From: Gemmatimonadota bacterium
Lineage (GTDB): Bacteria > 4572-55 > J002
Direction: 5' to 3'
DNA length: 7,221 nt
NCBI GenBank assembly: GCA_003697105.1
Contig: RFFQ01000004.1
Coordinates: 1 to 7,221, forward strand
Below, in pieces: positions 3,936 to 6,575 of the stretch. Below the pieces are notes generated by a model, which did no database searches, was not told the DNA's origin, and saw only the letters and a program-made list of their open reading frames with translations. The translations under genes were made by a program, and so were the position numbers. Each line of letters begins with the position of its first letter. Within the stretch, counting starts at the first letter, position 1.

Positions 3936-3964
3936 TTGACATTTAGTAGGCTTTTGCCTATGGT
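3936..3964 (+). promoter_or_regulatory. Predicted promoter of the ferredoxin-reductase operon
   Basis: A perfect TTGACA (3936-3941) is followed after 17 nt by TATGGT (3959-3964; 4 of 6, with the key T-A-T...T bases kept). Transcription would start near 3971, 43 nt before the TTG start at 4014. Being a promoter, this stretch is unlikely to be coding, although the reading frame of the ferredoxin stays open back to 3936. Confidence 0.6.
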
Positions 3965-3998: not shown

Positions 3999-4003
3999 GG
4001 AGG
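3999..4003 (+). promoter_or_regulatory. Ribosome binding site deciding the ferredoxin start
   Basis: GGAGG (3999-4003) followed by AAA lies 10 nt before the TTG at 4014. The other candidate starts (TTG 3936, ATG 3960) lack a comparable site and overlap the promoter. Confidence 0.65.
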
Positions 4004-4013
4004 AAACGTTCGG

Positions 4014-4211
4014 TTGCGTTACGAGAATAAAATTATTAAGGTCGATGAAAATCTATGCGATATTTGCGGGGTGTGTGTCAGTGTTTGTCCGGTGGATTGT
4101 ATTGATATGCCGGAGCGGGCGTTGATCGTCCATAATGACACCTGCATCCAATGTAATAAATGTATTGATATTTGTCCGGTGAGAGCATTGCGCTATGACG
4201 AAAAAATATGA
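4014..4211 (+). CDS. Small 2x[4Fe-4S] ferredoxin
   Basis: A 65-residue electron carrier binding two [4Fe-4S] clusters. Two cysteine motifs are complete: [12 protein letters not shown] (Cys15, 18, 21, 25) and [12 protein letters not shown] (Cys44, 47, 50, 54), with an extra Cys29 after the first. The two-fold repeat and the length are those of clostridial-type ferredoxins. The frame stays open upstream to 3936, but those residues (hydrophobic, no family match) would overlap the promoter; a TTG at 4014 with GGAGG 10 nt in front gives a normal ferredoxin N terminus ([12 protein letters not shown]). Its end overlaps the reductase gene by 17 nt, so the two are translationally linked and the ferredoxin is the likely electron donor for that enzyme; in methanogenic archaea a ferredoxin encoded next to geranylgeranyl reductase serves this purpose. 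The start codon is the only doubtful point. Confidence 0.9.
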
Positions 4212-5379
4212 TGTGATTGTGGTGGGTGCCGGTCCCGGCGGTAGCATTGCGGCCTATGAAGCGGCAAAAGAGGGCTTGAAAACCCTGTTGATCGAAAAAG
4301 ATCGGGAGATTGGCATTCCGGTACGGTGTACGGAGGGTACCGGTCATGCGGGTATCGCCGAATTTTTAGAACCAAACCCCAAATGGATCGCCGCCGTGGT
4401 TGATGGGGCACGTTTTTTTGCCCCGGATGGGACCACCGTGGATGTCACCACGATGGGCGGGGGCTATATTCTGGAACGTCGTATTTTTGATCGTGAGCTT
4501 GCCAACCGTGCCGCTAAAGCCGGGGCCGAAATCCGGGTACGTACCGAAGTAACCGGCTTGGTGTTTGATGCCGCCGGACGAGTCTGCGGGGTTAAAACGT
4601 ACTTCATGAACCATCAAGAAGATATTCACGCCAACATCGTCATTGCGGCAGATGGGGTGGAATCTCGTGTGGGGCGCTGGGCGGGCTTGAAGACGGTCTC
4701 CAGTATGCACAATATGGAAAGTAACTGCCAGTATCACATGGCAAATGTTACCACCGAAAACAATTACTGTGAGTTTCATTTTGGCGAGGAGGTGGCACCG
4801 GGGGGTTATGCTTGGGTCTTCCCCAAAATGGATGGCACGGCAAATGTTGGTCTGGGGATTTCCGGTGATTATGCCCGCAAACGTCCGGCAATTGAGTACT
4901 TAAATGCGTTTATCCGGCGGCGCTGTCCCAACGCCCAACCCCTGGGATTCACCATTGGCGGTGTACCGGTTTCGACGACACTTAAAGCCATTTCGACCGA
5001 TCATGTGATGCTGGTGGGGGATGCGGCTCGCACGGTCAACCCGATGACGGGTGCCGGGATTGTCAATGCGATGAAAAGCGGGCGTGAAGCTGGTCAGGTC
5101 GCTGTTGAAGCGCACCAACGCGGTGATTTTTCGGCAAAAATCCTGAAACGATATGACAAACGCTGGGAAAATCTGATCGGAAAAGTCCATAAACGATACT
5201 ATCGCATCCGCGAGGTAGTAGATCAGTTTGATGATGACCAGTTGAACCGGATTGCCCACTTGTTGCAGGATGCCGATCCGGAAAAATTGACCTTGTTTGA
5301 AGTCTTTAAGACCGCACTATTGAAGCATCCGAAAGTTTTACTAGACTTGCGGTATTTGCTTTCCATTGGCTATATTTAA
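4195..5379 (+). CDS. Geranylgeranyl reductase family FAD-dependent oxidoreductase
   Basis: A 394-residue flavoprotein of the geranylgeranyl/digeranylgeranylglycerophospholipid reductase family, which saturates double bonds of isoprenoid chains. Seen in sequence: the FAD-binding Rossmann motif [12 protein letters not shown] (9-20) with the acidic Glu34 ending the second strand; PVRCTEGTG (42-50), corresponding to the conserved cysteine-containing loop near the flavin; ERRIFDREL (94-102); [12 protein letters not shown] (151-162); GGYAWVFPK (203-211), the substrate-side YxWxFP signature of this family; and [15 protein letters not shown] (275-289), the second FAD motif. The C-terminal part (310-394) is helical and basic. 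No membrane segment is evident; members are usually peripheral membrane enzymes. The substrate may be menaquinone side chain, polyprenyl phosphate, or archaeal-type lipid. Electrons probably come from the overlapping upstream ferredoxin. The ATG at 4195 has GGTGAG about 11 nt upstream, inside the ferredoxin gene. A lipoprotein adaptor gene follows after 11 nt. Confidence 0.92.
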
Positions 5380-5381
5380 TC

Positions 5382-5388
5382 GAGGTGA
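5382..5388 (+). promoter_or_regulatory. Ribosome binding site deciding the adaptor start
   Basis: GAGGTGA matches the anti-Shine-Dalgarno sequence well; the GAGG core ends 5 nt before the ATG at 5391. The GTG at 5385 lies within it and so is a poor start choice. Confidence 0.7.
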
Positions 5389-5390
5389 AG

Positions 5391-6575
5391 ATGGGTGTTC
5401 CGGCAATTTTTACCACACCATCCACAAGCCGTGGTCGTTTGTGGTGTATCGGGCTGTTACTGATTTTTTTGGGAGTGGCGGCATGTAGTAAGTCCGAAGA
5501 AACCCCGAAAAATTCCGACGCAAAAACGGAAAAACAGGACAAAACGAAACAAAATGCCCCGGGAAAAAAGGGGAATTGGAACTCCGAAGACGAGGAAGCC
5601 AATCGTGCCATTCCGGTTGAAGCAACGCGGGTTCAGGAAGGCAGTATTTCTGCCTATTTATTGCTTAGTTCCACCATTGAAACGGAGCTCGCCGTTGACG
5701 TTTACTCTGAATTGGCAGGTTTTGTGACCACCGTCCATGTAGAAGAGGGGGATCACGTTCAAAAAGGGCAAGTGCTGGTTACGCTGGATCAAAAAGAGTA
5801 TGCCTTGCAAGAAGCCAAGCAATTGTTGGCATTGGAAAATCAGGAAAAGGAATATAACCGGCTGAAAGGTCTGTATGAACGACAGTTGATTAGTAATGAA
5901 GATTTTAATACGGCTGAGTACCAGTATAAACAGGCACAATTGAACTGGCAAGAAGCGAAGCTCAACCTTGATCGTACCGAAATCACCGCGCCGATTGCCG
6001 GGGTCATCTCCAAACGATGGGTCACCACGGGTCAACGGGTCACCACGGCGGAGCCGCTCTTTTCCATCGTTAATTTGGATGAAATGATTGTTCGGGTCAA
6101 CGTGCCGGAAACCGATTTAGCCAAATGTTATGTGGGACAAGAGGTGTTGATCACCAGCGATTTTTTACCGGGGGAACGAATTTCGGGAACTATCAAGCGG
6201 ATTAGCCCGGTGATCGATGCCGCCAGTGGCACATTTAGTGTCACCGTGGGGATTTCCGACCCGCAACAGCGGCTTAAGCCAGGATCGTTTGTCAATGTAC
6301 ATATCATCACTGCCCGACATGATGCCGCAACGTTGATTCCTAAAGATGCGGTGATTTACGAAAGTGATCAACAATTTGTTTTCAAAATTGTGCAAGATAC
6401 GTTGGCACTTAAGACCCCATTGAAACTGGGATTAGAAGATGCCGAAAAATTTGAAGTTTTGGAGGGTCTGGCTGTCGGAGATACGATCATCGTGATCGGA
6501 CAGAATGGGCTGAAAGATAAATCTAACGTAGATGTGGTCAAGTGGCAAAAGATTACGTTTGAGGAAGGACTTTGA
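5391..6575 (+). CDS. Lipoprotein membrane-fusion (RND/HlyD-type efflux adaptor) protein
   Basis: Periplasmic adaptor subunit of an efflux pump, 394 residues. The N terminus has a basic region, a hydrophobic stretch (17-31) and a lipobox LGVAAC, giving a lipid-anchored Cys32. A charged Lys/Glu/Asn linker (33-70) follows. The core shows the order expected for AcrA/MexA-type proteins: lipoyl half (VDVYSELAGFVTTVHVEEGDHVQKGQVLVTLD at about 102-133, given here as key residues G111, G120, D121, V123, G126), a short coiled-coil hairpin (about 135-193), the second lipoyl half with APIAGVISKRWVTTGQRV (200-217), then beta-barrel (LVNVPETDL region, 232-300) and membrane-proximal domain to the end. The ATG at 5391 is preferred over the GTG at 5385 because GAGGTGA (5382-5388) is its ribosome site and contains that GTG. 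It lies 11 nt after the reductase gene. Unusually, no pump or TolC-like gene follows. Confidence 0.9.
   Translation: MGVPAIFTTPSTSRGRLWCIGLLLIFLGVAACSKSEETPKNSDAKTEKQDKTKQNAPGKKGNWNSEDEEANRAIPVEATRVQEGSISAYLLLSSTIETELAVDVYSELAGFVTTVHVEEGDHVQKGQVLVTLDQKEYALQEAKQLLALENQEKEYNRLKGLYERQLISNEDFNTAEYQYKQAQLNWQEAKLNLDRTEITAPIAGVISKRWVTTGQRVTTAEPLFSIVNLDEMIVRVNVPETDLAKCYVGQEVLITSDFLPGERISGTIKRISPVIDAASGTFSVTVGISDPQQRLKPGSFVNVHIITARHDAATLIPKDAVIYESDQQFVFKIVQDTLALKTPLKLGLEDAEKFEVLEGLAVGDTIIVIGQNGLKDKSNVDVVKWQKITFEEGL

Follow-up and report, generated by a model that had tools for sequence, protein, structure and literature searches.

The window, by which we mean the whole stretch of 7,221 bp analysed here, is one entire contig (C73) of a 4.18-Mb MAG (199 contigs, 96.9% complete). 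On its forward strand, a ferredoxin gene overlaps a gene for a geranylgeranyl reductase (GGR), and the following features were identified.

3936–3964, + strand: sigma-70-like promoter (TTGACA-17-TATGGT) 5′ of the ferredoxin gene, matching the consensus at 10 of 12 positions
3999–4003, + strand: Shine-Dalgarno GGAGG, spaced 10 nt from the TTG start (sequence)
4014–4211, + strand: ferredoxin gene, 65 aa, TTG start and TGA stop (Pfam Fer4, 2e-13; Fer4_7, 7.5e-13)
4056–4091, + strand: first [4Fe-4S] motif, 12 residues, all four Cys strictly conserved across 7 aligned ferredoxins
4143–4178, + strand: second [4Fe-4S] motif, 12 residues, all four Cys and the Pro strictly conserved across 7 aligned ferredoxins
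4195–4211, + strand: 17-nt overlap of the ferredoxin and GGR frames (sequence)
4195–5379, + strand: GGR, 394 aa, probably of the archaeal digeranylgeranylglycerophospholipid-reductase type (GGR_cat, TIGR02032, PDB 3oz2)
4225–4242, + strand: FAD-binding GAGPGG, with G11, G13, P14 and G16 unchanged across 10 bacterial homologues
4318–4329, + strand: PVRC with Cys45, at the position of the Sulfolobus GGR catalytic cysteine, invariant in 10 bacterial homologues
4798–4824, + strand: PGGYAWVFP, the PxxYxWxFP substrate-cavity motif, with GGYxWxFP invariant and a near match in 3oz2 and 3atq
5017–5058, + strand: second FAD-binding motif, 14 residues, GDA and GxGI invariant
5385–6575, + strand: RND/HlyD membrane-fusion protein gene (TIGR01730, 251 bits; cut-off 95)

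An earlier, sequence-only reading had placed the pair at 3999–5379. Both genes are indeed there, but position 3999 belongs to the GGAGG ribosome-binding site and is not a coding start; TTG at 4014 is the in-frame start that agrees with the GGAGG spacing and with homologues. The two complete [4Fe-4S] motifs which that reading described ahead of the GGR were both recovered, each of the form C..C..C...CP and in a protein matched by Fer4 and Fer4_7, and the 17-nt overlap it had noticed proved exact. Judging from this arrangement, translational coupling of the two genes via the overlap is likely. The promoter-like site carries little weight alone, because four such sites were observed in the stretch versus 2.3 expected.

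The surroundings of the pair consist of common bacterial genes. An NlpC/P60 endopeptidase gene and further ordinary bacterial genes are located 5′ of the ferredoxin gene on the divergent strand, among them an ATP-dependent 6-phosphofructokinase (492–1652, − strand) in which a Pro/Glu-rich insertion of ~50 residues (approximately residues 245–290) splits the match to PFK models. The RND membrane-fusion protein gene follows the GGR on the same strand, with ATG at 5391 a likelier start than GTG at 5385, and is itself followed by a sugar epimerase gene broken off at the contig end. The RND/HlyD gene is probably co-transcribed with the pair; no match to this adaptor was detected in the neighbourhoods of ten GGR homologues, so the linkage is not conserved. 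Elsewhere in the genome, 102 matches to Por_Secre_tail (TIGR04183), a marker of type-IX secretion tails, suggest an FCB-group-like host.

The GGR frame runs from ATG at 4195 to a stop codon at 5377–5379, and no other full-length GGR is encoded in its genome. The protein scored 87 bits with Pfam GGR_cat (cut-off 27) and 224 bits with NCBIfam TIGR02032 (cut-off 159), thus passing both, and the two landmark motifs named in the sequence-only reading (18 and 14 residues) are both present, in agreement with its description of a GGR flavoprotein. Its top NCBIfam score was obtained with NF041160, the Thermoplasmatales DGGGPL reductase (287 bits, below the cut-off of 780), and the archaeal equivalog NF041080 gave 179 bits (below the cut-off of 580). 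Thus, archaeal lipid reductases are the best-scoring NCBIfam models of known function, and we assigned the protein to the broad GGR family only, because the archaeal equivalog cut-offs were not reached. The MenJ equivalog scored 85 bits (cut-off 700); an actinobacterial MenJ-like protein displayed the reversed pattern, with 87 bits for the archaeal lipid reductase model and 239 for MenJ. BchP/ChlP identity was rejected at 151 bits for the BchP-ChlP profile (cut-off 343). Among solved structures, the Thermoplasma acidophilum reductase 3oz2 matched best (E 3.6e-79, aligned over 4–388), and Cys45 aligns with the PVRC of 3oz2 and with the KPC cysteine of 3atq. An AlphaFold model of the GGR alone was unusable (pLDDT 34).

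A ferredoxin beside a flavoprotein of this superfamily could also indicate a FixC/FixX-like electron-transfer flavoprotein:quinone oxidoreductase and its ferredoxin, since FixC is itself a member of the GGR superfamily and has a ferredoxin-like neighbour in E. coli (ydiS-ydiT) and on a Rhizobium plasmid. We consider this identity extremely improbable and rejected it: the FixC model PRK10157 scored only 40 bits (cut-off 610), ETF genes are absent from the window, the GGR contains both the GGR_cat domain and the PxxYxWxFP motif, and FixC falls outside the clade described below.

Phylogenetic analysis was based on 61 sequences, with reference sequences taken from plasmid records and PDB alignments. 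The window GGR was placed inside a clade of 48 rows together with the Thermoplasma enzyme (support 88/93), and BchP, FixC, haloarchaeal reductases and the actinobacterial MenJ-like protein were all outside this clade. Such a tree had been proposed as a check by the sequence-only reading, and its result agrees with the profile scores in grouping the protein with the Thermoplasma GGR and not with FixC or BchP. A placement among unrelated FAD monooxygenases, which that reading had named as contrary evidence, was not obtained. The AU test did not reject a MenJ-like grouping without Thermoplasma (p 0.14), so the tree supports the Thermoplasma placement without proving it. Within the clade, the window GGR belongs to a subclade of 15 rows (93/91), 14 of which have the ferredoxin; mapping the presence and absence of the ferredoxin on the tree gave eight changes among 45 rows.

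To place the pair in a broader context, we analysed 290 bacterial genomes selected as relatives, in most cases one or two from each family, in which GGR was counted as present at E 1e-85 or better. GGR of the window type was detected in 42 of the 290 genomes (34 families), and a gene for a 2x[4Fe-4S] ferredoxin is located beside it in 30 of these 42 (25 of the 34 families), including the only relative of the window's class in the sample. The ferredoxin gene is mostly directly upstream of GGR, often overlapping it, and is downstream in three genomes; in one genome (G004), the two are fused in a single frame of 506 aa. The window ferredoxin is 40–49% identical to the ferredoxins adjoining homologous GGRs. 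Considering that homologous GGRs and two-motif ferredoxins adjoin in 30 of 42 genomes, with one fusion, the pairing is not due to chance. The sequence-only reading had named GGR homologues that never occur with a ferredoxin gene as evidence against itself, and these 30 genomes are the opposite of that. No ferredoxin gene was found beside GGR in the remaining 12 genomes. In another observation, G040 (L042/L114) has an in-frame TGA inside GGR and no ferredoxin gene within 1.5 kb upstream.

These data also bear on whether the pair is a remnant or a recent transfer without an active pathway, or whether the contig is an archaeal contaminant of the MAG. The window is the entire 7.2-kb contig, and among enzymes of known function the GGR is nearest to archaeal ones, both of which are compatible with such an origin. 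On the other hand, the flanks are all bacterial (PFK, NlpC/P60, RND adaptor), the motifs are intact, and the pair is present in 25 bacterial families, including the sample's only same-class relative. Archaeal contamination was rejected on the basis of the bacterial flanks and this conservation, and the explanation as a whole has very little probability in our view.

Other genes were observed next to the pair in some genomes. A UbiA gene lies directly upstream of it in G002 (L110, 1236–2201), G055 (L116, 7742–8701) and G046 (L115, 10114–11151); these proteins were rejected as DGGGP synthases, as they belong to a different UbiA group. A gene for a PgsA-like CDP-alcohol phosphatidyltransferase is located directly 3′ of GGR in G056 (L117, 8393–8929) and G046 (L115, 8174–8752), and is a candidate for ether-lipid head-group addition.

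We then examined the window's genome for genes of ether-lipid synthesis, a search that the sequence-only reading had suggested for both GGGP and DGGGP synthases. A GGGP synthase (GGGPS; C143:37712–38365) scored above the cut-offs of the geranylgeranyl-specific TIGR01769 (222 bits; cut-off 162) and of NF003198 (301; cut-off 247), and was far under the heptaprenyl model. A DGGGP-synthase (DGGGPS)-like UbiA (C101:33583–34422) contains an invariant NDxxD...D and has PRK12884 and the GGGP geranylgeranyltransferase PRK12882 as its best NCBIfam models, at scores below the equivalog cut-offs (226/269 and 211/296). It shows conservation with the homologues that cluster with GGR in other genomes, and the gene 2.6 kb downstream encodes a polyprenyl synthase. 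Three separate contigs carry the GGR pair, GGGPS and the DGGGPS-like UbiA. The genome also encodes a PlsC-type ester-lipid acyltransferase (PF01553, 104 bits) and MenA (NF004751, 345 bits; cut-off 264). Family searches of this genome found neither CarS nor a G1P dehydrogenase; its sole Fe-ADH_2 match was rejected as a G1P dehydrogenase, its sequence reading as 3-dehydroquinate synthase. The GGGPS gene lies directly after a WecA-like prenyl-phosphate sugar transferase gene (L119, 6463–8408), and the two possibly form one operon.

Among the 290 genomes, GGGPS was present in 35 of the 42 with GGR and in 13 of the 248 without it (Fisher p 2e-27), and in 25 of 31 versus 13 of 248 when the eleven seed genomes were excluded (p 1e-20), p-values which are inflated by shared ancestry. 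GGR also co-occurred with the DGGGPS-like UbiA (p 2e-25, inflated in the same way), for which a threshold of E 1e-35 was picked after the score list was known. All three genes were found together in 31 genomes, and seven of the 42 GGR-containing genomes are without GGGPS. The evidence for a GGR–GGGPS linkage holds apart from these p-values, because physical clustering is independent of them: in G103, G135, G126, G115 and G252, GGR and GGGPS share a strand and lie no more than ~130 nt apart, and G115 and G252 contain a DGGGPS–ferredoxin–GGR–GGGPS run, with all four frames overlapping in G115. In G121, GGR adjoins a DGGGPS-like UbiA. As a separate observation, G121 (L235, L238) and G258 (L234, L237), which belong to one family, each have two GGR copies without a ferredoxin; GGGP synthase was not detected in either genome.

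The main rival explanation, because MenA is present and the genome has only one GGR, is that the pair acts in a MenJ-like manner and saturates isoprene units in the side chain of menaquinone. MenJ saturates this side chain in Actinobacteria. The presence of MenA implies that menaquinone is probably made, the MenJ-like grouping is the one left unrejected by the AU test, and menaquinone-specific GGR paralogues have been proposed in Archaea (PMC10821996). However, the GGR scored far lower with MenJ than with the archaeal lipid reductase (85 vs 287 bits), it co-occurs with GGGPS, and its clustering partners elsewhere are GGGPS and DGGGPS, whereas the neighbourhoods sampled contained no MenA or MqnP gene within ~9 kb of GGR. 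We regard menaquinone as an unlikely main substrate, although GGR could act on both the ether-lipid precursor and menaquinone.

Reduction of free GGPP or polyprenyl phosphate, which would yield prenyl diphosphates or lipid carriers in saturated form for use in other products, appears less probable again. It would leave the link with GGGPS and DGGGPS unexplained, and the BchP-ChlP score speaks against it. Some observations do point in this direction, namely the promiscuity of GGRs in vitro (PMC9385802), the position of the window genome's GGGPS directly after the WecA-like gene, and, in G002, G046 and G055, the presence of a non-DGGGPS UbiA paralogue upstream of the pair.

The sequence-only reading had offered menaquinone, a polyprenyl carrier or archaeal-type ether lipids as what a working ferredoxin–GGR pair might saturate. 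Our analysis supports such a pair, and archaeal-type ether lipids are the likeliest of the three options, because genes for GGGPS and a DGGGPS-like UbiA are present in the genome and such genes co-occur or cluster with GGR elsewhere. Based on gene content and sequence features, a reasonable hypothesis is that the main role of the pair is ferredoxin-driven saturation of archaeal-type ether-lipid precursors, and we consider this probable. The ferredoxin and GGR would form one redox unit, in which the 2x[4Fe-4S] ferredoxin may donate single low-potential electrons in succession to the FAD of GGR, and the reduced flavin would then hydrogenate geranylgeranyl double bonds. GGR would act mainly on digeranylgeranylglyceryl phosphate or derivatives of it, which GGGP synthase and the DGGGP-synthase-like UbiA would supply within the same cell, and the predicted products are saturated archaeol-type lipids alongside ordinary ester phospholipids. 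In this scheme, the inferred elements are the transfer of electrons from ferredoxin to GGR, the identity of the substrate, how far saturation proceeds, the stereochemistry of the glycerol and the lipid production itself.

The pair bears on the 'lipid divide', namely on whether living bacteria produce archaeal-type lipids. The published FCB work reconstituted the two ether-forming steps in E. coli and obtained unsaturated lipid only; we regard the ferredoxin and GGR as strong candidates for the saturation step lacking there and its electron donor. We would give roughly even chances to the broader idea that many bacterial families, this FCB-group-like lineage included, natively make fully or partly saturated archaeol-type lipids via a ferredoxin-driven module, such that mixed membranes are normal and widespread. 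If this is true, mixed archaeal/bacterial membranes would be an ordinary bacterial trait and not an engineered curiosity. The DGGGPS–ferredoxin–GGR–GGGPS run found in two genomes provides a compact unit for heterologous reconstitution without culturing.

Earlier publications already cover both the FCB bacterial pathway of archaeal type and the synteny of GGR and ferredoxin in Euryarchaeota. In the open-access papers searched, no report was found of a bacterial ferredoxin partner, a ferredoxin–GGR fusion or GGR–GGGPS clustering, which is weak evidence of absence. In Methanosarcina acetivorans, according to two reports (PMC9385802, PMC12042123), the GGR of the GGR–ferredoxin pair MA1484-MA1485 (Isobe 2014) works poorly in E. 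coli without the adjacent ferredoxin, and with the ferredoxin it yields archaeol, mainly anaerobically. Similar to that system, a ferredoxin gene adjoins a GGR probably of the archaeal lipid family in the window, and the need for low-potential electrons for full saturation in Methanosarcina is assumed, by analogy, to apply to the window pair as well. In contrast, the Methanosarcina ferredoxin gene is described as downstream of GGR, whereas that of the window is upstream and overlapping, and belongs to a bacterial pair of predicted activity. The T. acidophilum GGR (3oz2) has the FAD, PVRC and Y.WVFP motifs in common with the window protein, and a 4Fe-4S protein is presumed to supply electrons to this archaeal enzyme in vivo (PMC10821996). 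The menaquinone reductase MenJ, the chlorophyll-related BchP/ChlP and FixC belong to the same flavoprotein superfamily but gave far lower scores and lie outside the clade.

For the FCB pathway (Villanueva 2020, PMC7852524), the paper reports that, in E. coli, FCB GGGPS and DGGGPS produce an unsaturated archaeol containing eight double bonds, that GGRs are found in FCB genomes with the archaeal-type pathway, and that the published Cloacimonetes MAGs are without G1P dehydrogenase (egsA/araM) and CarS; no description of a ferredoxin partner was found in its main text. Like the organisms covered there, the window's genome combines GGGPS, a DGGGPS-like UbiA and a GGR probably of archaeal type with an ester-lipid acyltransferase, with neither egsA/araM nor CarS found. 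The sole co-location given there is GGGPS with DGGGPS in Cloacimonetes, whereas in our sample the ferredoxin gene adjoins GGR in 25 families and GGR is clustered with genes for the two ether-forming steps.
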